A model generated the notes under the pieces. The model was not told the origin of the DNA. It worked only from the letters and a program-made list of their open reading frames with translations, and ran no database searches. The position numbers and the translations under genes were made by a program. 32,170 nt of DNA. Source: Bacillota bacterium (GTDB taxonomy: Bacteria; Bacillota; Sulfobacillia; Sulfobacillales; JAIMBI01). Where the stretch lies: assembly GCA_021846505.1 (NCBI GenBank), contig JAJZWV010000044.1, positions 1 to 32,170 of the forward strand, written 5' to 3'. Shown in pieces: positions 12,508 through 22,211 of the stretch. Each line of letters begins with the position of its first letter. Within the stretch, counting starts at the first letter, position 1.

Positions 12508-13632
12508 ATGAACGAGGATTGGATCCCCGAGCGGACCTTCCCCGCGGGCGGGCACCACCGGCTGGCGCTGCCGCCTGGCCCGCTGACCTTCGCCAACGTC
12601 TGGACGGCACTCCCCCCTGCTCGCCGCGAGGCGGCCCGCGACTATTTTGCCCAGGGCCGGGTGGTCCACCGCTGCCGGCGGGGCCGTGCACACATTGCCG
12701 TGCTGCACGGCCACCAAGATGTCTACCACGTTTATTGTGAGGACGGCGCCGCCGGCTGGCAAGTGGGGTGCACGTGTGAGCGCCGAGCGCCGTGCGCCCA
12801 CGTCGGCGCGCTACTGCTCGCGCTGGCGGAGGAGCCGGGCACGTTCACGGCCTGGAGCTCGGCAGCCGCGGCCCTCGCGGGGGCCGAGGATTGGGCCTGG
12901 GACTGGGCGCGGGGGGCTTCGTTTCCCTGGGCCGCCTTCACCGCGCACACGCCGTTATGGCAGGCCCCAGCGGGACCCGAGGCTCCGCTCCCGAAAGCCG
13001 CCGCCGCCCTGGATGCGACCACCGGCCGCGACCTGGACGCCCTGCTGGCCGACCTGGTGCAGGCGGCCCACCCCGGCTGGTGGGAGCATCCGCGCTTTGC
13101 GCGCACCCTTGCCGGCGCATTTGCCCGACTGGCGCACCAAGCCCCGCCTCCGGCTGCGCTGGCACGGTGGATGGGCCGGCTCGCCGGCGAGCCCCGCATC
13201 CCGTGCAGCCTGTTATTTGACACAAACGCCGCCGAAAGCCCTGCTGTGGCAGCCGCTTGGCAAAGCGCGCTGTGGACCGTCGCTGCGGCGCATGCCCTAG
13301 ACCCACGCCCGTCCCAGGCGGTGTCCGCGCGCGCCCTCCTGGCCCTGCCGCGGCTCGCCGCCGCGCATCCGGAGCTGGTGCGCGAGTTCGGGTGGGCGCT
13401 CCCCGCCAATGCCAGCCAGGCCGCGCTCCTGGTTCAGCAAGGCCGCCCGGCCGAGGCCTGGTGGCACTTATCCCAGCAGCCACCGGCCCCGGCTTCAGAC
13501 GATGCCTTTGGAGGCGGCTCTCCCGATCCCTACCGGCGCGCTGTCAAGCTTCTCGCGAAGGAGATGGTGACGGGGCTCGCGAGTGAGCCGCCTGGCCCGC
13601 GTCCCAGCGCATCAGGCCCGGCGTTTCCGTAA
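12508..13632 (+). CDS. SWIM zinc-finger domain protein
   Basis: This 374-residue protein has a SWIM finger near its N terminus: C88, C90, C96 and H98 in GCTCERRAPCAHVGALLLAL, fitting CxCx(n)CxH. SWIM fingers bind DNA or protein. In bacteria such proteins are often encoded next to SNF2-family ATPases, and one lies about 4 kb away at 17561-19135. The remaining 270 residues are Ala/Pro/Trp-rich and helical, with no further domain I recognise. The start is supported by GAGGTG 5 nt before the ATG. The 3' end overlaps the convergent nicotinate phosphoribosyltransferase gene by 89 bp. The Pro/Ser-rich tail encoded in that overlap may be non-essential. Confidence 0.85.
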   Translation: MNEDWIPERTFPAGGHHRLALPPGPLTFANVWTALPPARREAARDYFAQGRVVHRCRRGRAHIAVLHGHQDVYHVYCEDGAAGWQVGCTCERRAPCAHVGALLLALAEEPGTFTAWSSAAAALAGAEDWAWDWARGASFPWAAFTAHTPLWQAPAGPEAPLPKAAAALDATTGRDLDALLADLVQAAHPGWWEHPRFARTLAGAFARLAHQAPPPAALARWMGRLAGEPRIPCSLLFDTNAAESPAVAAAWQSALWTVAAAHALDPRPSQAVSARALLALPRLAAAHPELVREFGWALPANASQAALLVQQGRPAEAWWHLSQQPPAPASDDAFGGGSPDPYRRAVKLLAKEMVTGLASEPPGPRPSASGPAFP

Positions 13633-14647
13633 TGCCGGGGATGCGGCCGCGCTTGGCAACGGGGCGGCCACCTACCTCTTTTAGGTCCATGGTAAAATCC
13701 AGCGGCGGCGCCGCCGCCACGTAGTGCCCCACGCCGAATCCAGCGGCCCCGGCCTCCCGCAGCTCCGCGACGCGCTCCGGCGACAAGCCCCCCGACACAA
13801 AAATGCCTACGCGCGGAAATCCTGCGCGGTCCAAGTGGGCGCGAAGCTCCCGCACCAGGTCGGCGGTGACCCCCCCGCGCTCGCGCGGCGTATCCAGCCG
13901 AACGCTGGCCAGCGACGGCAGCGCCCGCGCCACGCGCAGCGCTTCTTCTACCTCGTCGTGAAATGTGTCTACCAGCACGGTCCGGGGAACTCCTGGCGGC
14001 ATCAGCGCGTCAAAGGTCTGGGCGACCGCCACCGTGTCCCCCACGATCAGCATGAGGGCGTGCGGCATCGTCCCGGCCGGAACCAGTCCCGCCTGGCGCG
14101 CCCCCAGGATTGTCGACACCCCCTGAAAGCCCCCGACCAGCGCCGCGCGGTCCATAACCGACGCGACGGCCGGATGGACGTGCCGGGCCCCATAAGATAT
14201 CACCGGCACTCCGCCCGCCGCGGCCACCACCGCGCGTGCGGCCGTGGCCCACCCCGACGATGCCGCCAAAATCCCCAGGACGGCCGTTTCCAAGACGGCA
14301 AAGCGGCTGTAGGGACCCCGGATCCTCAGCACTACTTGGCGCGCGGCCAGCTCGGCTCCCTCCGGAGCGGCCCACAGCTCCAAGCCCCGGTCCGCCAACA
14401 GCGCCAGCGCCTCGTCCATGCCCGCCAACAGGCCGGATCGGTTGGCAAACACTTCGGCCGTGACGACCTGCTGGGCCAATCCCTCCCGCTCCAGCACGTC
14501 CAGGGTCCCGACGAAGTACACGTCGGCGGTGAGGCCGGCCTCCACCTGCTCCGGCGTCGCCGAGCGCACCCGCTGAGGTGCTGGCCTCCAGGACGCCACC
14601 GACTGCCACGAGAGCGTAGGCAGCGGGTCGCCGCCTACGCCCGCCAC
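13544..14647 (-). CDS. Nicotinate phosphoribosyltransferase
   Basis: The enzyme makes nicotinate mononucleotide from nicotinate and PRPP with ATP, salvaging niacin into NAD. The 367-residue product has the family's early T-ADVYFVGTLDVLE segment, the Arg-rich strand VVLRIRGPYSRFAVLETAVLG, the YGARHVHPAVA segment and the phosphate-binding end (FVSGGLSPERVAELREAG, then GFGVGHYV). It resembles the shorter archaeal/thermophile-type enzymes rather than the long PncB type. The GTG at 14647 overlaps the ridA-like stop by 13 nt, which suggests coupling, but a slightly later start is possible. The last 30 residues (HSRAPSPSPSREA end) overlap the convergent SWIM gene and look like an added tail. Confidence 0.88.
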   Translation of the reverse strand: MAGVGGDPLPTLSWQSVASWRPAPQRVRSATPEQVEAGLTADVYFVGTLDVLEREGLAQQVVTAEVFANRSGLLAGMDEALALLADRGLELWAAPEGAELAARQVVLRIRGPYSRFAVLETAVLGILAASSGWATAARAVVAAAGGVPVISYGARHVHPAVASVMDRAALVGGFQGVSTILGARQAGLVPAGTMPHALMLIVGDTVAVAQTFDALMPPGVPRTVLVDTFHDEVEEALRVARALPSLASVRLDTPRERGGVTADLVRELRAHLDRAGFPRVGIFVSGGLSPERVAELREAGAAGFGVGHYVAAAPPLDFTMDLKEVGGRPVAKRGRIPGITETPGLMRWDAGQAAHSRAPSPSPSREA

Positions 14648-15129
14648 GAGAAAATCACTTCCACCTCAACCGGCGCGTCCAGCGGCAGCGCGGAGACGCC
14701 CACCGCGGAGCGGGCATGGCGGCCTGCCTCGCCCAGCACCGCCTGCAGAAATTCCGACGCGCCGTTGACCACGGCTGGCTGGGCGTGAAAATCCGGCGCC
14801 GACTGGACGAAGCCCACCACTTTCAAGACGCCGGTCAGCCGGTCGACCCCCCCCACGGCTGCCGCCGCCGCCGCCAGAGCGTTGAGGGCACACTGGCGGG
14901 CCATCGCCGCCGCCTCCTCCACGCCCACGGCGTCACCCACGGCGCCCGTCGTCACAAGGCGCCCGTTCACGGTGGGCAGCTGCCCAGACGTCCAGCACTG
15001 GTCCCCCACCACCCGCGCCGGCACATAGGTCGCCAGCGGCGCGGGCGCCGGCGGCAGTGTCACACCCATCTCTTCCAGCTGGCGGGATACGCTTTTCGGC
15101 GTGTCGCTCTCTCTGGCCATGCCTATCAT
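14635..15129 (-). CDS. RidA/YjgF-family protein
   Basis: RidA-like proteins are small trimeric enzymes; the archetype hydrolyses reactive enamine/imine intermediates released by PLP enzymes. The 164-residue product belongs to the longer RidA subgroup (about 150-160 residues). The core GDQCWTSGQLP, the NALAAAAAAVGGVDRL segment and the C-terminal VEVIFSW are recognisable. The usual substrate-binding Arg near the C terminus of classical RidA is not evident, so activity may differ. The ATG at 15129 has GGGAAG 10 nt upstream; an ATG at 15120 and a TTG at 15147 are alternatives. It overlaps the following nicotinate phosphoribosyltransferase gene, with which it is probably co-transcribed. Confidence 0.85.
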   Translation of the reverse strand: MIGMARESDTPKSVSRQLEEMGVTLPPAPAPLATYVPARVVGDQCWTSGQLPTVNGRLVTTGAVGDAVGVEEAAAMARQCALNALAAAAAAVGGVDRLTGVLKVVGFVQSAPDFHAQPAVVNGASEFLQAVLGEAGRHARSAVGVSALPLDAPVEVEVIFSWRA

Positions 15130-15283
15130 CGCCGCCTGTCTTCCCAATTAGGCTTACGGCCGCGTGGCCGGCCCGCCCCGAGACTAGCATCCGCCCCAAA
15201 CCGGGTCAACGCCTGCCCGGCCTGACATAGCGGAGCCTTCGCCGCGCACATATTTGGCTAGGTGGGAACAGGGAGGCACATTT

Positions 15284-15817
15284 GTGCTCAATGTGGTGGA
15301 CGGCATCTCGATCTGGGCGGTGCCGATCTTGCTGGGCATCATTCCGGTTTACGGCCTCTTGAGAGGTGTGCCCGTGTACGAGGTATTCGTGGAGGGCGCC
15401 GAAGAGGGGTTCAAGATGGCCGTCATGATGATTCCCTTTATCGTGGGCATACTGGTGGCGCTGTCGGTGTTTGAAGCTTCCGGCGCGCTGGACTGGGTCA
15501 TCGCCCGCCTCGCAGGCCCTCTCTCGCTGGTGGGGGTGCCCGCGCCGGTGGTGCCACTGATGCTGGTGCGGCCCATCTCGGGCGGAGCCGCCCTCGGTAT
15601 CGCCACCGGGTTGCTCCAAAAGTACGGGCCGGACTCGTTTGTGGGCCGCGTGGCCTCTACCCTGCAGTCCAGCACCGACACCACGTTTTATGTGCTGACC
15701 CTGTACTTTGGCAGTGTCAGCATCCGCCGCACCCGCTATGCCCTTAAGGTGGCGCTGCTGGGCGACCTGGCGGGCTTTGTGGCGGCCGTGGTGATTTGCC
15801 ACGCGCTCTGGGGCTAG
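15284..15817 (+). CDS. spmB: Spore maturation protein B
   Basis: SpmB works with SpmA in the sporulating cell and is needed for full spore core dehydration and heat resistance in Bacillus; it is a membrane protein with nucleoside-recognition (Gate) features. The 177-residue product is one residue shorter than the B. subtilis length I recall. It shows the family segments VPVYEVFVEGAEEGFKMAV, the LMLVRPISGGAA loop and STDTTFYVLTLYFGSV. An AGGGAGG 7 nt before the GTG at 15284 fixes the start. The orientation is odd: it lies where expected, right after spmA, but on the opposite strand, and the two 3' ends overlap by 74 bp. It must therefore have its own promoter; I saw only weak sporulation-like boxes upstream. 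Confidence 0.95.
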   Translation: MLNVVDGISIWAVPILLGIIPVYGLLRGVPVYEVFVEGAEEGFKMAVMMIPFIVGILVALSVFEASGALDWVIARLAGPLSLVGVPAPVVPLMLVRPISGGAALGIATGLLQKYGPDSFVGRVASTLQSSTDTTFYVLTLYFGSVSIRRTRYALKVALLGDLAGFVAAVVICHALWG

Positions 15818-16394
15818 GCTGCCGCCACCGATACCAGCGATCCGCGACCACCGCCACCATCATGGCCGCCGCCGTGGCCATGATGGTGGGGCCGACGATA
15901 TCCGCGGGACTGCGAGAGCCTGCCGCCACCCGGAGCGCAATGACCGACGCCGGCACGAGATTCAGCGCGGCTGTATTGAGCGCTATGAACGTAATCATCG
16001 ACGAGGAGGCCGTGGCGTCGCTGGGATCCTGAAGGCTTCGCAAGTCCTGCATGGCCTTCAGCCCAAAGGGGGTGGCGGCGCTGCCCATGCCCAACATATT
16101 GGCAACCAAGTTCATGGACATGTTGCCCAGCGCCGGTGTGTCGTGGGGAACTTCGGGAAACAGCCGGCGCAACACGGGTGCCAGCAGGTCGGCCAGCTGC
16201 TGCATCAAGCCCGACCGCTCGGCAATGCGGGCCATGCCCAGCCACAGCGTCATGATGCCCACGAAGCCCAGGGCTACCTCCACGCCCTTGCCCGCCGCGG
16301 TCATTGCCGCCTGAGTCACCTCCGGCAGGGTGCCGCCGGCGGCCGCCACCAGCAGCCCTCCCACGAGGAGCACCACCCACACCACGTTGATCAC
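15744..16394 (-). CDS. spmA: Spore maturation protein A
   Basis: SpmA is the partner of SpmB in spore core dehydration. The 216-residue membrane protein starts INVVWVVLLVGGLLVAAAGG and contains the family stretch GLMQQLADLLAPVLRRLFPEVP, NMSMNLVANMLGMGSAATPFGLKAM and SSSMITFIALNTAALNLVP. Several helices are visible. The GTG at 16394 has AGGGGG about 10 nt upstream; a longer open frame to 16547 overlaps the preceding gene and is rejected. About 20 extra residues at the C terminus (Pro/Arg-rich) are encoded in the part overlapping spmB, so the stop appears to have shifted downstream. It follows the disulfide-oxidoreductase-like gene by 14 bp, in the long minus-strand run that also holds the end-joining genes. 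Confidence 0.95.
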   Translation of the reverse strand: MINVVWVVLLVGGLLVAAAGGTLPEVTQAAMTAAGKGVEVALGFVGIMTLWLGMARIAERSGLMQQLADLLAPVLRRLFPEVPHDTPALGNMSMNLVANMLGMGSAATPFGLKAMQDLRSLQDPSDATASSSMITFIALNTAALNLVPASVIALRVAAGSRSPADIVGPTIMATAAAMMVAVVADRWYRWRQPSPRARGKSPRPPQSPPGRPAAPP

Positions 16395-16408
16395 GGGTCG
16401 CTCGCCCC

Positions 16409-17104
16409 CTAGGGACGAGATATGCCACCGGGCTCCGGTGCCAACACCCGAAGCCACTGCGAAATCCACTCGGATTCCGGAGCCATGCCGGACCACGCGG
16501 CCGCGCGGCCAGACGCCGGGTCCCACACGCGCACGCTTGGCAGCCACTCGGCGCCGACCAGCCCGCCGTCGGTGGGGGCTCCCACCGCGGCCGCGTCGAC
16601 AATCAGCGCGCGCACTCGACCCGCGGTCGCGGCAGCGAGGCGCTCCGCTAGGCGAATGGCGTGAGGGCAGTACGGGCAGTTGGCACTGACCGCCACCTGC
16701 ACCAGCAGCGGCCGGTCTACGAGCTCCAGCACGGGGTGCCAGCGGTCCGCCAACGGGCGCCGGGGGCGACTCAAGTCCAGCAATTGACCGACCACGGTCT
16801 GATAGATGTATCCAGCGGGCACACCCAGAAGCCGGGTGCCGCTGTCCGCGCCGTCGGCGTCAAAAAACACCGCCGCTGGGCGGAGGCCCCCGGTGTCCGG
16901 CGCTTCCCGCTCCATGGGTGCGGGCTCGTGGTGCCGCCGCACCGTCAGTCGCCGGTGTGCGGCGTCCCGGGTGGCCGTCCAGATGGCATCGGCTCGCTCG
17001 GACGGCTCCTCATCGTCCAGAAACACATCCACGGCCACCGGCGCGACCAAACCCGACAGCATGAGGGCCAGCGTGCGTCGGTCCCGATGGTCAAAGCTGG
17101 ACAC
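16409..17104 (-). CDS. Glutaredoxin-like protein disulfide oxidoreductase with one CXXC
   Basis: The 231-residue protein has the two-thioredoxin-fold layout of archaeal/thermophile protein disulfide oxidoreductases. The second fold carries the active-site CPYC (C143-C146, within ANCPYCPHAIRLAE) and a later LPSVRV cis-Pro strand. The first fold is recognisable by the VFLDDEEPSERAD strand-helix and the LLGVPAGYIYQTVV hinge segment, but its CXXC is gone; in its place is a Asp/Glu-rich stretch near residues 30-37. It would act in disulfide reduction or isomerisation in the cytoplasm. The GTG at 17104 overlaps the rhodanese stop by 14 nt and is preceded by GGAG; a GTG at 17128 is less likely. Function is inferred from fold and motif only. 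Confidence 0.82.
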   Translation of the reverse strand: MSSFDHRDRRTLALMLSGLVAPVAVDVFLDDEEPSERADAIWTATRDAAHRRLTVRRHHEPAPMEREAPDTGGLRPAAVFFDADGADSGTRLLGVPAGYIYQTVVGQLLDLSRPRRPLADRWHPVLELVDRPLLVQVAVSANCPYCPHAIRLAERLAAATAGRVRALIVDAAAVGAPTDGGLVGAEWLPSVRVWDPASGRAAAWSGMAPESEWISQWLRVLAPEPGGISRP

Positions 17105-17560: not shown

Positions 17561-19135
17561 TTAGGGATCGCGGTGAGGGCTTGCGCCGTCCCACCGTCCC
17601 ACGCGCGCCTCGGCTGCCCGAAACTCGCGCGCCACCCTATCCAGCCGCTCTTCCAGGTCACCGGGGCCCGCGGTCATCGCAATGGACAGCAGGCGACCCT
17701 CCCAGCTGCGCCCGCGGTGCTCCAGGTGGCGCAGGATGACGTCCAGCTCGCCCACCACCTGACGGAACAAATCGATTTTTTCGTGGAGCAGACGCAGAAT
17801 CTGCTCCTCGATTGTGCGGGCCGCGAACAAGTTGTAGATGTGGCATCGAGCCTCTTGGCCCAGGCGGTGTATGCGGCCGATGCGCTGTTCAATGCGCATC
17901 GGATTCCATGGCAGATCGTAGTTGACCACGTGATGGCACCACTGGAGATTGAGTCCTTGGCTGCCCGCCTCTGTCGACACCAGCACCGCGCGCGGCGTCC
18001 TGCGGAACCACTCGAGCGCCCGCTCCCGATCACGCGGCGGCTGGCGCCCGGAAAAGGGCGCCGCGGGAATGCCCGCAACGTTCAGCTGGACCACGAGCAT
18101 GTCCTGAGTGGCGGTAAATTCCGTAAATACCACCGCGGGTGCCGACAGGGGCTTCAGCAGCTCCTGAAGGGCGTCCGCCTTTGCGGGCCGCGGAATGGAC
18201 CGCGCCAGTTTCAGAAGCGGCTCCTGGCTCTCGCCCAGCCACCCGGCGCCATCCAGAGCAGAGGCCAGTGCCTGCGGACTGGAGCACAGCTCGCGCTGGA
18301 TGGTGAGAATGGGCAGCAAATTGCCATGCCCGCGGAGCCGCTGCGCATAGGCGTCGCGGAGCTGCCGAGTGACCCGGACATACAGCGCCCGCTCCGGTGG
18401 CGTGGGCACAATCGGCAGCAGGGTGACCTCACGGGCGGGGAGGCCGAGGCCGGCCTCGTGGTGGCGGTGCCGGATCATCACCCGCGCCAGCAGCGCGCGC
18501 AGGGCCGCAAGATTTTTCGGTGTGCGCGGGGCGACGATGAACTCGCGATAAAATTCCAGGTACGACCCGAACAGCTGCGGCGCCACCAGCGTGACCAGAC
18601 TGTATAGCTCGGTCAGGCGGTTTTCCAGCGGCGTCGCGGTCAGCAGCAGCGTGTGGCGCCGGCGGATCGCCTCGACCAGTGCGTAGTTTTGGGTGCGGGG
18701 ATTTTTCAGGTGGTGGGCCTCATCCACCACCAGCAGATCCCACCGCCGCTCGAGGACTGCGCGCTTCTGCCGCTCGCGCTTGGCAGCATCCAGCGACAGC
18801 ACGGTTACGGCGGCCCTCTCGCGGGGATCGATGGCACTCGGCCAGCCGAACTTCTGCACCCATTCGTCTCGCCACTGCCGCACAAGCCCGGCCGGCGCCA
18901 GCACAAGCGTCGACGCGCCCCCACCCCGCGCCGCCAGCTCCGCGCGAACCAGACCCGCCTCCACGGTTTTGCCCAGACCCACTTCGTCCGCCAAAATCGC
19001 GCTCCCGCCCAAATCCTCCACAACCGCCCGGGCCGTCTCCACCTGGTGGGCATAGGCCGCCAGGCCCCGCGCTGCCCGCCCCTCCAGAAACGCCTCCGCG
19101 GCAAACCCGTTCCACACCAGCGTGCCTCTGTTCAC
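17561..19135 (-). CDS. SNF2-family DNA-dependent ATPase/helicase
   Basis: This is a compact 524-residue superfamily 2 SNF2-type ATPase, a double-strand DNA translocase. Visible motifs are motif I DEVGLGKT (50-57), motif Ia LVLAPAGLVRQW, motif II DEAH (138-141), motif III LLLTATP (163-169), then the C-terminal lobe with SQGLNLQWCHHVVNYD and motif VI QRIGRIHRLGQ. It lacks the large N-terminal extensions of RapA or the SWIM-linked helicases. A GTG at 19135 has AGGGAGG 11 nt upstream and is preferred over the GTG at 19147, which overlaps that site. It begins 21 bp after the LigD-type polymerase stop, so it is the fourth gene of the ku-ligase-polymerase series. A role in clearing or remodelling DNA ends during end joining is my inference. 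Confidence 0.93.
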   Translation of the reverse strand: MNRGTLVWNGFAAEAFLEGRAARGLAAYAHQVETARAVVEDLGGSAILADEVGLGKTVEAGLVRAELAARGGGASTLVLAPAGLVRQWRDEWVQKFGWPSAIDPRERAAVTVLSLDAAKRERQKRAVLERRWDLLVVDEAHHLKNPRTQNYALVEAIRRRHTLLLTATPLENRLTELYSLVTLVAPQLFGSYLEFYREFIVAPRTPKNLAALRALLARVMIRHRHHEAGLGLPAREVTLLPIVPTPPERALYVRVTRQLRDAYAQRLRGHGNLLPILTIQRELCSSPQALASALDGAGWLGESQEPLLKLARSIPRPAKADALQELLKPLSAPAVVFTEFTATQDMLVVQLNVAGIPAAPFSGRQPPRDRERALEWFRRTPRAVLVSTEAGSQGLNLQWCHHVVNYDLPWNPMRIEQRIGRIHRLGQEARCHIYNLFAARTIEEQILRLLHEKIDLFRQVVGELDVILRHLEHRGRSWEGRLLSIAMTAGPGDLEERLDRVAREFRAAEARVGRWDGASPHRDP

Positions 19136-19156
19136 TGCCGCTGCCACCTCCCTGTC

Positions 19157-20017
19157 TCATCTCGCCCAATCGGCTGCAAGCTGCCGCAGCCTGCCCACGG
19201 GTGGAATCCCGGCGCGCTCCAGTGTGGACCGCAGGTCCACCGCCGGGCCGCGGCCCCATACAGGCACGGCCTGCCCCTGGAGCACCGTGGCCACCCGGTG
19301 GTGGTCCGGCTCCAGGCTTGCCAGCGCGCCCACCCCCGTGGGCCAGCTGACTGGGGCCATCTCCCGCGCGCGCACCCCGTACACGGCCGCCATGGTGCGG
19401 TGCCCGCTGTTTTGCAAGTAGTCCAGATACACCCGCGGCCCCCGATCCCGCACGCGACGCACCACCGTCATGATGTCGGGCGAGACGGCGCAGGCCACGC
19501 GGGCCAGGCGCTCCATCGCCTCGGTCGCGTCAGCCGCCTCGGTGGGCCGGATAGGGACCAGGATGTGAACCCCCCGGCCGCCGGAGGTTTTGACGCTCAT
19601 GGGCATCCCTACGTGGTCAAACAGGCGCGCGACGGCCTGCGCGGCTTGGACCACCCGCGGCCATCCCGCAGGGGGGTGTGGATCAAGGTCCATTACGGCC
19701 CAGTCGTGAAGGGAAGGCGTGCCGGCCAGGACTCCGCTGACTCCCAGCGGCAGGTGAAACTCGACCGCGCCCTGCCGCACCCATCCCAATAACTCGGCGG
19801 GATCCTCAATGCGGATGGCACAGCGCCGGCCCCGGGTCGTCACGAATTTTTGAAAAAACCCGGGCTGGCCGACGCCGCGGGGATAGCGAATCAGCGTCAC
19901 CGCCCGGCCCACGCACGCGTCCACCAACGGCTGGCTCACCCGCTCGTAATAGGCGAGCAGGTCGGAGCGCCAAATGTTCGCCGCCGGAAACAGCAGCCGG
20001 TCGCGCCCGCTGCTCAT
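19157..20017 (-). CDS. ligD-pol: LigD-type polymerase/primase domain protein
   Basis: This 286-residue protein is a stand-alone archaeo-eukaryotic-primase-type polymerase, equivalent to the polymerase domain of bacterial LigD. It fills gaps and adds ribonucleotides at broken ends in non-homologous end joining. Motifs: YYERVSQPLV near residue 23, TLIRYPRGVGQPGFFQK (41-57), catalytic DLDP (D110 and D112), the SGGRGVHI nucleotide-binding loop (145-152) and the third acidic residue in YLDYLQN (D199). The length fits the domain alone, with no nuclease or ligase part. The start overlaps the ligase stop by 4 bp (ATGA), so the proteins are translationally coupled. Confidence 0.94.
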   Translation of the reverse strand: MSSGRDRLLFPAANIWRSDLLAYYERVSQPLVDACVGRAVTLIRYPRGVGQPGFFQKFVTTRGRRCAIRIEDPAELLGWVRQGAVEFHLPLGVSGVLAGTPSLHDWAVMDLDPHPPAGWPRVVQAAQAVARLFDHVGMPMSVKTSGGRGVHILVPIRPTEAADATEAMERLARVACAVSPDIMTVVRRVRDRGPRVYLDYLQNSGHRTMAAVYGVRAREMAPVSWPTGVGALASLEPDHHRVATVLQGQAVPVWGRGPAVDLRSTLERAGIPPVGRLRQLAADWAR

Positions 20018-20829
20018 CGCGAAGCCTCCCCGTACGCGACAAAGGCGGCGTGGCGGAGACGGCCGCTGGGGGTCCGGCCCCGATGCCGCACCCGCGCCAG
20101 CACCCCGGCCCCGAGCTCGATGCGCTGCCCCTCGACCGGGGCGCCCACGCCGGGCGGCGCCGGCACCGCCAAACAGGCCAGCGGCGGCCAGCCGCCCACG
20201 GCGGTCACGTCGCCGAGCCAGCGGCCGGCCCGGCCCGTCAGGACCTGCACTTCCACCTGTACTTCTTCAGCGTGCAAAAACTTTCTCCAGTCCGCGCTTC
20301 GCCGGCCCGGCCAATAAGAGCTAGCCTGCCGCTTGGCCACTACCCCTTCGAAGCCCAGGCGGCCGGTGGCTCGGAACAGGTCTTCGCCGCGCTCCGCCAC
20401 CCCGTCGCACAGCATCAAGGGGCCGGCCGGCCGAACTATGGCTTCAAGATGCCGCCGACGCACCGTCCAGGGCTGGTCGAGGAGCCACCCGCCCGGCGCA
20501 TAAAGGCAGTCAAACGCCACCAGGATCACCTGCCCGTGGCCCGCGGCCAGCGCATGAAAGTTGATGCGGCCCGCATCCCAGGCCACCACCTCGCCGTCCA
20601 GCACGGCCGGCCCAGCCACCCCGGTCTCGACCGCTGCCAGCCCCGGAAAGCGGTCCAGGAGGTTTTCCCCGTGGCGCGAGCGCACCGTCAGGTGGCGGCT
20701 CACGCTCACCTGCGCCCGGAAGCCGTCCCACTTGGGCTCAAACCACCAGTCCTTGCTGGTGAACGGCGCCGGGGCCGTGACCGCCAGCATGGGCGGCACG
20801 AAGTCGCCCAGCGTCCTCTCCGCCGGCAT
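20014..20829 (-). CDS. ligD-lig: ATP-dependent DNA ligase (LigD ligase-domain type)
   Basis: This 271-residue ligase seals breaks in end joining. It has the adenylated Lys K33 in EPKWDGFRA, motif III VLDGEVVA, the FDCLY strand, motif IV FEGVVAKR and an OB-fold C-terminal half. Motif V reads ADWRKFLH where ligases usually have W-x-K-x-K, so the second Lys is replaced; activity may be altered or the residue supplied differently. It lies directly after ku (ku stop TGA abuts this ATG) and overlaps the polymerase start. Ligase and polymerase are split here rather than fused as in many LigD proteins. Confidence 0.94.
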   Translation of the reverse strand: MPAERTLGDFVPPMLAVTAPAPFTSKDWWFEPKWDGFRAQVSVSRHLTVRSRHGENLLDRFPGLAAVETGVAGPAVLDGEVVAWDAGRINFHALAAGHGQVILVAFDCLYAPGGWLLDQPWTVRRRHLEAIVRPAGPLMLCDGVAERGEDLFRATGRLGFEGVVAKRQASSYWPGRRSADWRKFLHAEEVQVEVQVLTGRAGRWLGDVTAVGGWPPLACLAVPAPPGVGAPVEGQRIELGAGVLARVRHRGRTPSGRLRHAAFVAYGEASR

Positions 20830-21612
20830 TCAGCGCGCCCCAGCCGAAGGCGGTGCGGCCACGTCCTCCAGCGACCGCCGCAGCTGGTCCACCAGGCTCT
20901 TCAGTCCCGCAGGTGGGCTCGCGGGAGCGACCGCCTGACCTTGCTCCGCCCGCTCCAACAGGGCCGCCATCAGGGTGGCGCGGGCCTCGTCCGGATAGGC
21001 GGCAGGCTCAAACGGCTCCGACAGATGGTCCACCAGGGCCAAGGCCATTTCTTCCTCGCGTTCGGAGGCTTTCGGGGCCTCGGAGCCGAAGTGGGCTCCC
21101 TCCTGCCGCACTGCCTCTGGCCAGTGCATGCTGTGGAGCATGAGGGCACCGGTCCCATAAGGGCGCACCACGGCCAGCCGGGGCCGCTCGCGCGCGGCCA
21201 TGCGCGCCACCGCCACTTGATGGCGGCGGGACATCGCCTGGCTGAGCAGCCCATAGGCCTGGTGGCCGCCGCTGGCTGCCTTCAGCCAATAGGCTTGGTC
21301 AAAGTACACCGGATCAAGGTCGGCCAAGGGGTGAAAGCTGAGGATGGAAATCACTCGATCCGGTGGCCGGCGGTCGGCGGGCTCCTCATTGCAGGGCACC
21401 AGCCGGCCATCGCCCAGCACGGCGGCTCGCGCGATCTCGCCCCTGTCCAGCACGCGGTCGCACGCGGGGCACTGCTTTTGGTAACGCACCCGCTCGCCGC
21501 AGCCGCGGTGGATCCAATGGGTCTCCACGCGCTCGGCGCCGACGGCCCGATAAAGCTCCACCGGGATCGAGACCAGCCCAAAGCCCAAGACGCCTTTAAA
21601 CATGCTCCGCAT
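20830..21612 (-). CDS. ku: Ku DNA end-binding protein
   Basis: Bacterial Ku is a homodimeric ring that binds double-strand DNA ends and recruits the ligase. The 260-residue product begins MRSMFKGVLGFGLVSIPVELY, the family's usual start, and has the Cys-bearing GCGERVRYQKQCPACDRVL segment also found in Bacillus Ku. The beta-barrel core continues through VYFDQAYWL and LMLHSMHWPEAVR. The longer open frame upstream is not part of the protein; ATG 21612 and ATG 21603 are both possible starts, with only a G-rich site upstream. It follows ytfJ by 68 bp and heads the end-joining series. In Bacillus subtilis ku and ligD are expressed in the forespore; a spore link here is suggested by location. Confidence 0.95.
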   Translation of the reverse strand: MRSMFKGVLGFGLVSIPVELYRAVGAERVETHWIHRGCGERVRYQKQCPACDRVLDRGEIARAAVLGDGRLVPCNEEPADRRPPDRVISILSFHPLADLDPVYFDQAYWLKAASGGHQAYGLLSQAMSRRHQVAVARMAARERPRLAVVRPYGTGALMLHSMHWPEAVRQEGAHFGSEAPKASEREEEMALALVDHLSEPFEPAAYPDEARATLMAALLERAEQGQAVAPASPPAGLKSLVDQLRRSLEDVAAPPSAGAR

Positions 21613-21680
21613 CCCACCGCCCCCGCCTAGTAGGGTGGCGCCGACTGCGGAAATCACGCTGGCAAGTTTTTGCCCAAGCG

Positions 21681-22211
21681 TCAGCGCGCGCTGTTGTCGC
21701 TGGCCGGGTAGGTATACGTTGAGGCGTGGCTCTCCTTGCTGCTGCCGCCACCCAGCCAGCTCTGCACCTGCTCCACGATTTGGGGCCCGGCTTCCAGCAG
21801 CCGGTCCCACATGTCCCCGCCTTCCACGGACAGCATGCGCACGGCATCGCCGCGCTGCACCAAAAATCCCATGGGCCGGACCGAGACGCCCGCACCGCTG
21901 CCGCCGCCAAACGGGCGTGCCCCGGCCGGGCTCGCGCCCGTCCGGTCGGGCCGCCAAAACTCGCCGCCGCCGGCGGCAAAGCCAAATGACACCCGAGAGA
22001 TGGGAATAATGGTGGTGCCGTCCTGCGTCGAGACCGGGCTCCCGACCACGGTGTTGACGTCAATCATGCCTTTGATGGACTCCATGGCGGTTTTCATGAG
22101 CCCCTCGATGGGGTGCCGGCTTAGCGGGCCGGACGCGTCGGCCGCGGCGCCGTGGTTGCCCGGGGCCATGGGGCGCTCATCGGGGTGAAGCCCCTGCTCG
22201 CTGTTGGCCAT
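21681..22211 (-). CDS. ytfJ: Sporulation/germination protein YtfJ (GerW family)
   Basis: GerW-family proteins are made in sporulating cells and are needed for normal germination in Bacillus and Clostridium; the molecular role is unclear. The 176-residue product has the family core HPIEGLMKTAMESIKGMIDVNTVVG and a TTIIPISRVSFGFAAGGGE segment, then a Gly/Ala-rich stretch and the VSVRPMGFLVQRGD segment. AGGAGGGG 7 nt before the ATG at 22211 supports the start. It overlaps the ytfI stop by 35 bp, so translation is coupled. The C terminus (STYTYPASDNSAR) is not conserved. ku follows 68 bp downstream. Confidence 0.94.
   Translation of the reverse strand: MANSEQGLHPDERPMAPGNHGAAADASGPLSRHPIEGLMKTAMESIKGMIDVNTVVGSPVSTQDGTTIIPISRVSFGFAAGGGEFWRPDRTGASPAGARPFGGGSGAGVSVRPMGFLVQRGDAVRMLSVEGGDMWDRLLEAGPQIVEQVQSWLGGGSSKESHASTYTYPASDNSAR

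Follow-up and report, generated by a model that had tools for sequence, protein, structure and literature searches.

Convergent spmA and spmB genes throughout one order of Bacillota point to an in-place inversion of spmB with a probable gain of its own mother-cell promoter

The genes spmA and spmB face each other in every genome of the order containing Sulfobacillus in which both lie on one contig (33/33 pairs). We encountered the arrangement in a 32,170-nucleotide contig of this order, referred to in full as the window. SpmA and SpmB are known for their role in spore core dehydration, a function that the window's proteins presumably share. We give a probability of roughly 0.8 to a single-gene inversion in the order's ancestor, after which spmB gained a sigma-E-type promoter and co-expression was kept. 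In that common ancestor, spmB would have turned within its own slot in a codirectional spmA-spmB-ridA series, converting the two-gene operon into two facing units. spmA would keep its old direction and its mother-cell-type promoter, and spmB would be read from the new divergent region between spmB and ridA, where the sigma-E-type promoter would have arisen. The downstream ridA series would run on a vegetative-type promoter of its own in the same region, and sporulating mother cells would still likely produce both SpmA and SpmB.

The gene pair in the window has these features.

15284..15817, plus strand: spmB, GTG start, TAG stop, 177 aa; reversed compared with the counted relatives from outside the order
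15744..16394, minus strand: spmA, GTG at 16394, TAA at 15744, 216 aa; ancestral direction
15744..15817, no strand assigned: antiparallel overlap of the spmA and spmB reading frames, 74 bp, length not conserved
15270..15276, plus strand: ribosome-binding site AGGGAGG of spmB, read from the sequence

The original prediction had described spmA and spmB as convergent with a 74-bp overlap, and its coordinates and strands proved right when the reading frames were rechecked. The codirectional adjacency of an spmAB operon is thereby absent from the window. Each of the two small neighbouring proteins carries the Gate domain (Pfam PF07670; 41.3 bits for spmB and 43.9 bits for spmA, cut-off 29.6). Residues invariant in relatives from other Bacillota are mostly kept: in small alignments with 8 relatives for SpmB and 7 for SpmA, no annotated SpmA or SpmB record being among them, SpmB retains 31 of the 33 columns that do not vary in the remaining rows, and SpmA 38 of 46. 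Among the NCBIfam models searched, the spmB product matched only PRK10519.1 (34.6 bits, cut-off 111) and the spmA product matched nothing. The names used here are based on domain, size, adjacency and alignments, and no curated NCBIfam model confirms them. spmB has a single match in the window's own genome.

The two genes normally share a direction, as the original prediction assumed. In the rest of the class, all 87 pairs (84 genomes) are codirectional with spmA first, and all 98 pairs (91 genomes) of a phylum sample are codirectional, the window's own genome being set aside. The class survey searched 154 genomes with each protein; 120 have both genes and 117 have them on one contig, the count omitting G054, G114 and G131, where spmA and spmB lie on different contigs. 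spmA occurs without spmB in G049, G072, G073 and G151. A second spmB match in G080 (C24:106506, same strand) and a weak spmA row in G145 (C59:8607) were left out of this count. The phylum sample comprises 109 genomes, 92 of them with both genes by the rows kept, and shares G136-G138 with the class set; 13 spmB-model rows with E of 1.6e-10 or weaker and five spmA-model rows (G228:C9, G183:C2, G213:C3 15979 and two of G242) were left out. The weak rows among these that pair on one contig (G183:C2; G242 near 228 kb) are codirectional too. In a species-genome collection, from which the best 80 loci of 102 confirmed relatives were taken, seven loci near the order are convergent and 71 of the other 73 are codirectional; the remaining two (L063, L078) contain no spmA match. 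Because all 33 pairs within the order are convergent, the state appears ancestral to the order. The suggestion that the inversion is a peculiarity of the window's genome must be given up, in favour of the ancient state that the original prediction had itself named as its refutation.

To ask where the inversion lay, we turn to the neighbouring genes, two of which are listed for the window.

14635..15147, minus strand: RidA/YjgF-family gene, ancestral downstream neighbour of spmB, now divergent; the true start may be downstream of 15147
13544..14647, minus strand: nicotinate phosphoribosyltransferase (NAPRT) gene, NF006415 at 426.4 bits (cut-off 243), part of the ancestral downstream series

All 21 order loci compared read spmA forward, spmB reversed and ridA forward. 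The 20 outgroup loci all have spmA and spmB in one direction, with ridA next on the same strand in 14. Two further neighbour clusters, which from reading the sequences we take to be rluB-like and NAPRT genes, occur in 10/20 outgroup and 16/21 order loci, and in 9/20 outgroup and 21/21 order loci, respectively. Since ridA is still on the strand of spmA and the neighbours are kept, it appears that only spmB flipped, in its own slot. The identification of spmB as the inverted gene, in its expected position, is thus upheld by the ancestral slot and neighbours retained across the order. The rluB-like gene that follows ridA is missing from the window, three sister species and locus L118, and in the window ridA and the NAPRT gene overlap (14635-14647) where it is absent. 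In two loci from sister species (L112 and L113, from G004 and G002) spmB and ridA are separated by approximately 3 kb that holds several genes and that the window lacks.

Phylogenetic trees of 54 SpmA and 54 SpmB proteins recovered the order as monophyletic (support 99/97 for spmA and 100/99 for spmB), with no outside row nested within it. Both trees fit most simply a single inversion event at the order's stem followed by vertical descent. The original prediction had suggested looking for inverted repeats at the breakpoints; among 22 repeat pairs in 14900-16450, none joins 15150-15280 with 15740-15830, and over an order-level time span none would be expected to persist. GC skew, computed from twenty 20-kb samples in each of three single-chromosome genomes, indicates that spmA is a leading-strand gene and spmB a lagging-strand gene in G110 (whose profile is lopsided) and G090; the locus of G111 lies near the terminus, where the leading/lagging call is unreadable from GC skew. 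With these two genomes as evidence, the event may have been of the co-directional to head-on kind.

Two readings would remove the inversion altogether. An assembly inversion, the other refutation envisaged for the prediction, or a chance reading-frame artefact might be suspected because the assembly is split into 119 contigs and the window, at 32 kb, is one of them. The same orientation in 32 other genomes, including assemblies of one to three contigs (G090, G108, G109, G110 and G111), some of a single contig, argues that this is not an assembly error, and conservation of the layout across the order excludes chance; we regard an artefact as vanishingly improbable. Alternatively, the native spmB could have been lost and a horizontally acquired spmB could have landed reversed in the same slot. 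The order's stem branches are long (0.28 for spmA and 0.47 for spmB) and neither tree resolves an exact sister lineage, which leaves room for such a replacement. Yet spmB occupies exactly the ancestral slot, and none of the outside lineages sampled falls within the order's spmB, so that we consider replacement quite unlikely compared with inversion of the resident gene.

An inverted spmB would need a promoter of its own. Outside the order, the gap between spmA and spmB matches in the class has a median of 22 bp and is 60 bp or less in 68/87 pairs, leaving spmB there little space for a promoter in most cases. Upstream of spmB in the window we found a candidate site consisting of ACATAGC, a 15-nt spacer and CACATATTT.

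15225..15231, plus strand: candidate sigma-E-type -35 ACATAGC of spmB; p=0.004 with random windows of this contig as background, 0.012 with shuffles
15247..15255, plus strand: candidate spmB -10 CACATATTT, located 37 nt ahead of the start codon

Sites were scored with a weight matrix whose training set, 48 sites in 17 genus-by-gene units, came exclusively from spoIVA and spoIIIAA-like promoters of the order. The training sites were picked by pattern after the conserved spmB element was known; spmB sites themselves stayed outside the model, as did any site from the window's family, f1. Similar sites precede these training genes, for example GCATTAT-14-CATATCTTG and GAATAAC-14-CATAGATAT. spoIVA exceeds its family cut-off in 38/42 genomes of the order; the spoIIIAA-like genes exceed their curated cut-off in 0/42 (E mostly 1e-58 to 1e-78), and that family also matches in 8/14 control genomes. 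For the window's own spoIVA, a site emerges only when the range is widened from 160 nt (p=0.76) to 300 nt (p=0.014), and spoIVA of G001, an f1 relative outside the training set, has a strong site (p=0.004).

On the spmB strand, 25 of the 33 order loci carry a site at p<0.05 when random windows from the locus itself serve as background, and 24 when shuffles do. Nine of 12 genus medians fall at p<0.05, giving a Fisher value of 1.4e-7 that overstates significance, as the genera are related and not independent (locus TL1-4.bin73 stands outside the genus medians). Loci with no site at p<0.05 against random windows are those of G006, G091, G092, G111, G113, G118, G121 and TL1-4.bin73; the medians of genera g3, g5 and g13 lack a good site, and in five loci (G002, G091, G113, G118 and TL1-4.bin73) the opposite strand outscores the spmB strand. 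The best site reads TCATNNN-13/14-CATAT[CG]NT, 92-129 nt before the start, in 18 of 26 loci of family f3, and its position in f1 differs from that in most f3 loci. A B. subtilis sigma-E consensus gave no significant spmB site in any of the 33 loci (p 0.075-1.0).

The outgroup orders served as a control: the same model found a site at p<0.05 upstream of spmB in 0/20 loci and upstream of spmA in 11/20. The promoter that the original prediction required for spmB is therefore apparent as a promoter-like site in most loci of the order, against none in the outgroup, and the expression of the two genes, which it took to be separated, is probably split. We favour a gain of a sigma-E-type mother-cell promoter by spmB after the inversion, although the sites do not separate sigma-E from sigma-K use. 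From the contrast between order and outgroup we infer that the gained promoter probably restored mother-cell co-expression.

Two further candidate elements lie on the minus strand.

16416..16424, minus strand: candidate -10 CATATCTCG of spmA, 30 nt before the start; weak in the window's genome (p=0.34)
15181..15189, minus strand: weak candidate extended -10 TGCTAGTCT of the ridA transcription unit, a possible, loosely matching counterpart of TGGTATACT in the other families

Across the order, 19/33 loci have a site upstream of spmA at p<0.05, and the best site has a CATA -10 in 33/33. What represents the mother-cell promoter of an spmAB operon in this order is thus a promoter-like site only, at spmB in 25/33 loci and at spmA in these 19. 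The divergent ridA-spmB region contains two conserved elements, one of them the spmB site described above. The other, TGGTATACT, read towards ridA, resembles an extended -10, and 26/33 loci contain it, as AGTATA[CG]C when read on the strand of spmB; it is absent from the six loci of the window's family, which have only a loose AG..TA.CA, and from TL1-4.bin73, a locus whose coordinates are identical to those of G117. The ridA series is probably served by its own vegetative-type promoter in this region. The 11-mer AGTATACCAGG is strikingly conserved across family f3, beyond the needs of a plain -10, and has 2-5 sites per genome in 5 genomes. We considered CCTGGTATACT as a regulon-wide operator and rejected it, since 14 sites in 5 genomes, although more than the 3 of a reversed control, are too few for a large regulon; we retain it solely as a candidate promoter for the ridA series. 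A search for structured RNA in the ridA-spmB region of 20 loci gave no Rfam family at or above its gathering score.

The 3' ends of the two genes are less constant than their orientation. Among the 33 order loci, six overlap by more than 4 bp, nine share exactly 4 bp, and the remaining 18 have gaps of 1-540 bp. The window's overlap is the longest of the 15 coding overlaps, the other 14 spanning 4-41 bp, and within its family the values are 74, 4, 4, 26, 41 and 27 bp. We found no intrinsic-terminator-like site between the window's spmA and spmB, which makes some 3' overlap of the mRNAs likely there. At 15854-15889, inside spmA and 37 nt past the spmB stop, a perfect stem of 14 bp encloses a loop of 8 nt, with no T-run. 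As a conserved terminator it was rejected: its z is -2.7 in the window, and the folds of the three sister species at this place have different and shorter stems, two of them with z of -2.6 and -2.7. Complementary 3' ends, as originally predicted, hold for the window's overlapping frames and not as a conserved trait, since overlap length varies. Similarly, the predicted extension of SpmA by about 20 residues is seen against two of three sister species (216 residues versus 196, 196 and 203), and the tail is not conserved. The 74-bp overlap and the 20-residue tail look like incidental drift of stop codons and not like a conserved antisense device.

A regulatory role for the facing arrangement can nonetheless be framed in two ways. 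The transcripts could base-pair and set the SpmA:SpmB ratio, as an excludon or as a noncontiguous operon whose spmA-ridA transcript runs across the reversed spmB. The order of spmA forward, spmB reversed and ridA forward fits the noncontiguous-operon layout in the accessible part of PMC7154746, mother-cell-type promoter-like sites stand at both genes in much of the order, and no intrinsic-terminator-like site was found between the window's pair. However, with the overlap so seldom longer than 4 bp, with roughly 3 kb of other genes separating spmB from ridA in the two sister species mentioned above, and with an extended -10-like element that could start ridA independently, we judge a conserved antisense device to be unlikely. 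It is still more doubtful that two facing sigma-E promoters interfere and so meter SpmA against SpmB, which would make the locus a conserved noncontiguous sporulation operon. We retain the in-place inversion with a regained mother-cell promoter.

Two observations concern the surroundings and distribution of the pair. Upstream of spmA, the window contains an SNF2-type helicase gene and neighbours (17561-21957) that, from reading the sequences, we take to resemble Ku and the polymerase and ligase parts of LigD; related clusters are found next to spmA in a large part of the order, and also in several further orders of the class. The helicase (17561-19147) was tried as a DISARM component and rejected, scoring 224.7 bits with the DrmD model against a cut-off of 610. 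Eight of the order's 42 genomes match neither spmA nor spmB (G093, G094, G096, G099, G100, G005, G112 and G124). The first five, from genera g6, g8 and g10 and 95-97% complete, have spoIVA over its cut-off and the spoIIIAA-like gene below; spoIVA being kept in them, spmA and spmB seem to have been lost together while other sporulation genes stay. G005 also lacks a spoIVA match.

The event itself is of a known kind, a gene inversion that splits an operon, in a clean order-wide example, and not a new mechanism. It can be described as operon fission with regulatory rescue, in which the turn of one gene split the pair and co-regulation was apparently rebuilt with the same sigma type. This suggests that SpmA and SpmB need not come from one mRNA, a point of moderate interest for operon evolution and sporulation. 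In the literature searched, mostly outside subscription papers, we found no description of convergent spmA/spmB and no paper combining Sulfobacillus with "spore maturation protein". The accessible part of PMC7924749 does not treat spmAB orientation, and a term search of the accessible text of the S. thermotolerans (PMC6803676) and S. acidophilus (PMC3558970) genome papers gave no mention of spmA.

Judging from the accessible parts of the sources, spmA and spmB belong to a dacB-spmA-spmB operon in B. subtilis (PMC8745062) and form a sigma-E operon in C. difficile (PMC3789822). The window's order shares with the Bacillota operon its two adjacent Gate-domain genes and, probably, the mother-cell sigma-E-type control reported for C. 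difficile; it differs in that the window's spmB is reversed, with its own promoter-like site and no operon. The noncontiguous operon menE-menC-MW1733-ytkD-MW1731 of S. aureus, as given in the accessible text of PMC7154746, likewise has an interspersed gene reading opposite to its flanking genes, a layout found in the order; unlike it, the flanking ridA series has its own candidate promoter, and the likeness is one of gene layout. Excludon or 3'-overlap regulation asks for long mRNA overlap, and the order shows coding overlap in 15/33 loci. Convergent pairs with overlapping stop codons, among which the accessible portion of PMC2174442 singles out the 4-bp overlap, are matched exactly in 9/33 order loci; nothing here is unusual in kind, though the window's 74 bp is the longest of the 33. 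A further parallel may be the gene inversions of co-directional to head-on type that the available text of PMC6220195 describes. As in those cases, a whole gene was turned in place, with spmA leading and spmB lagging in two of the three genomes sampled. In contrast to them, the order's inversion seems to have become fixed a single time, at the order's stem, and it lies within an operon that is otherwise codirectional.
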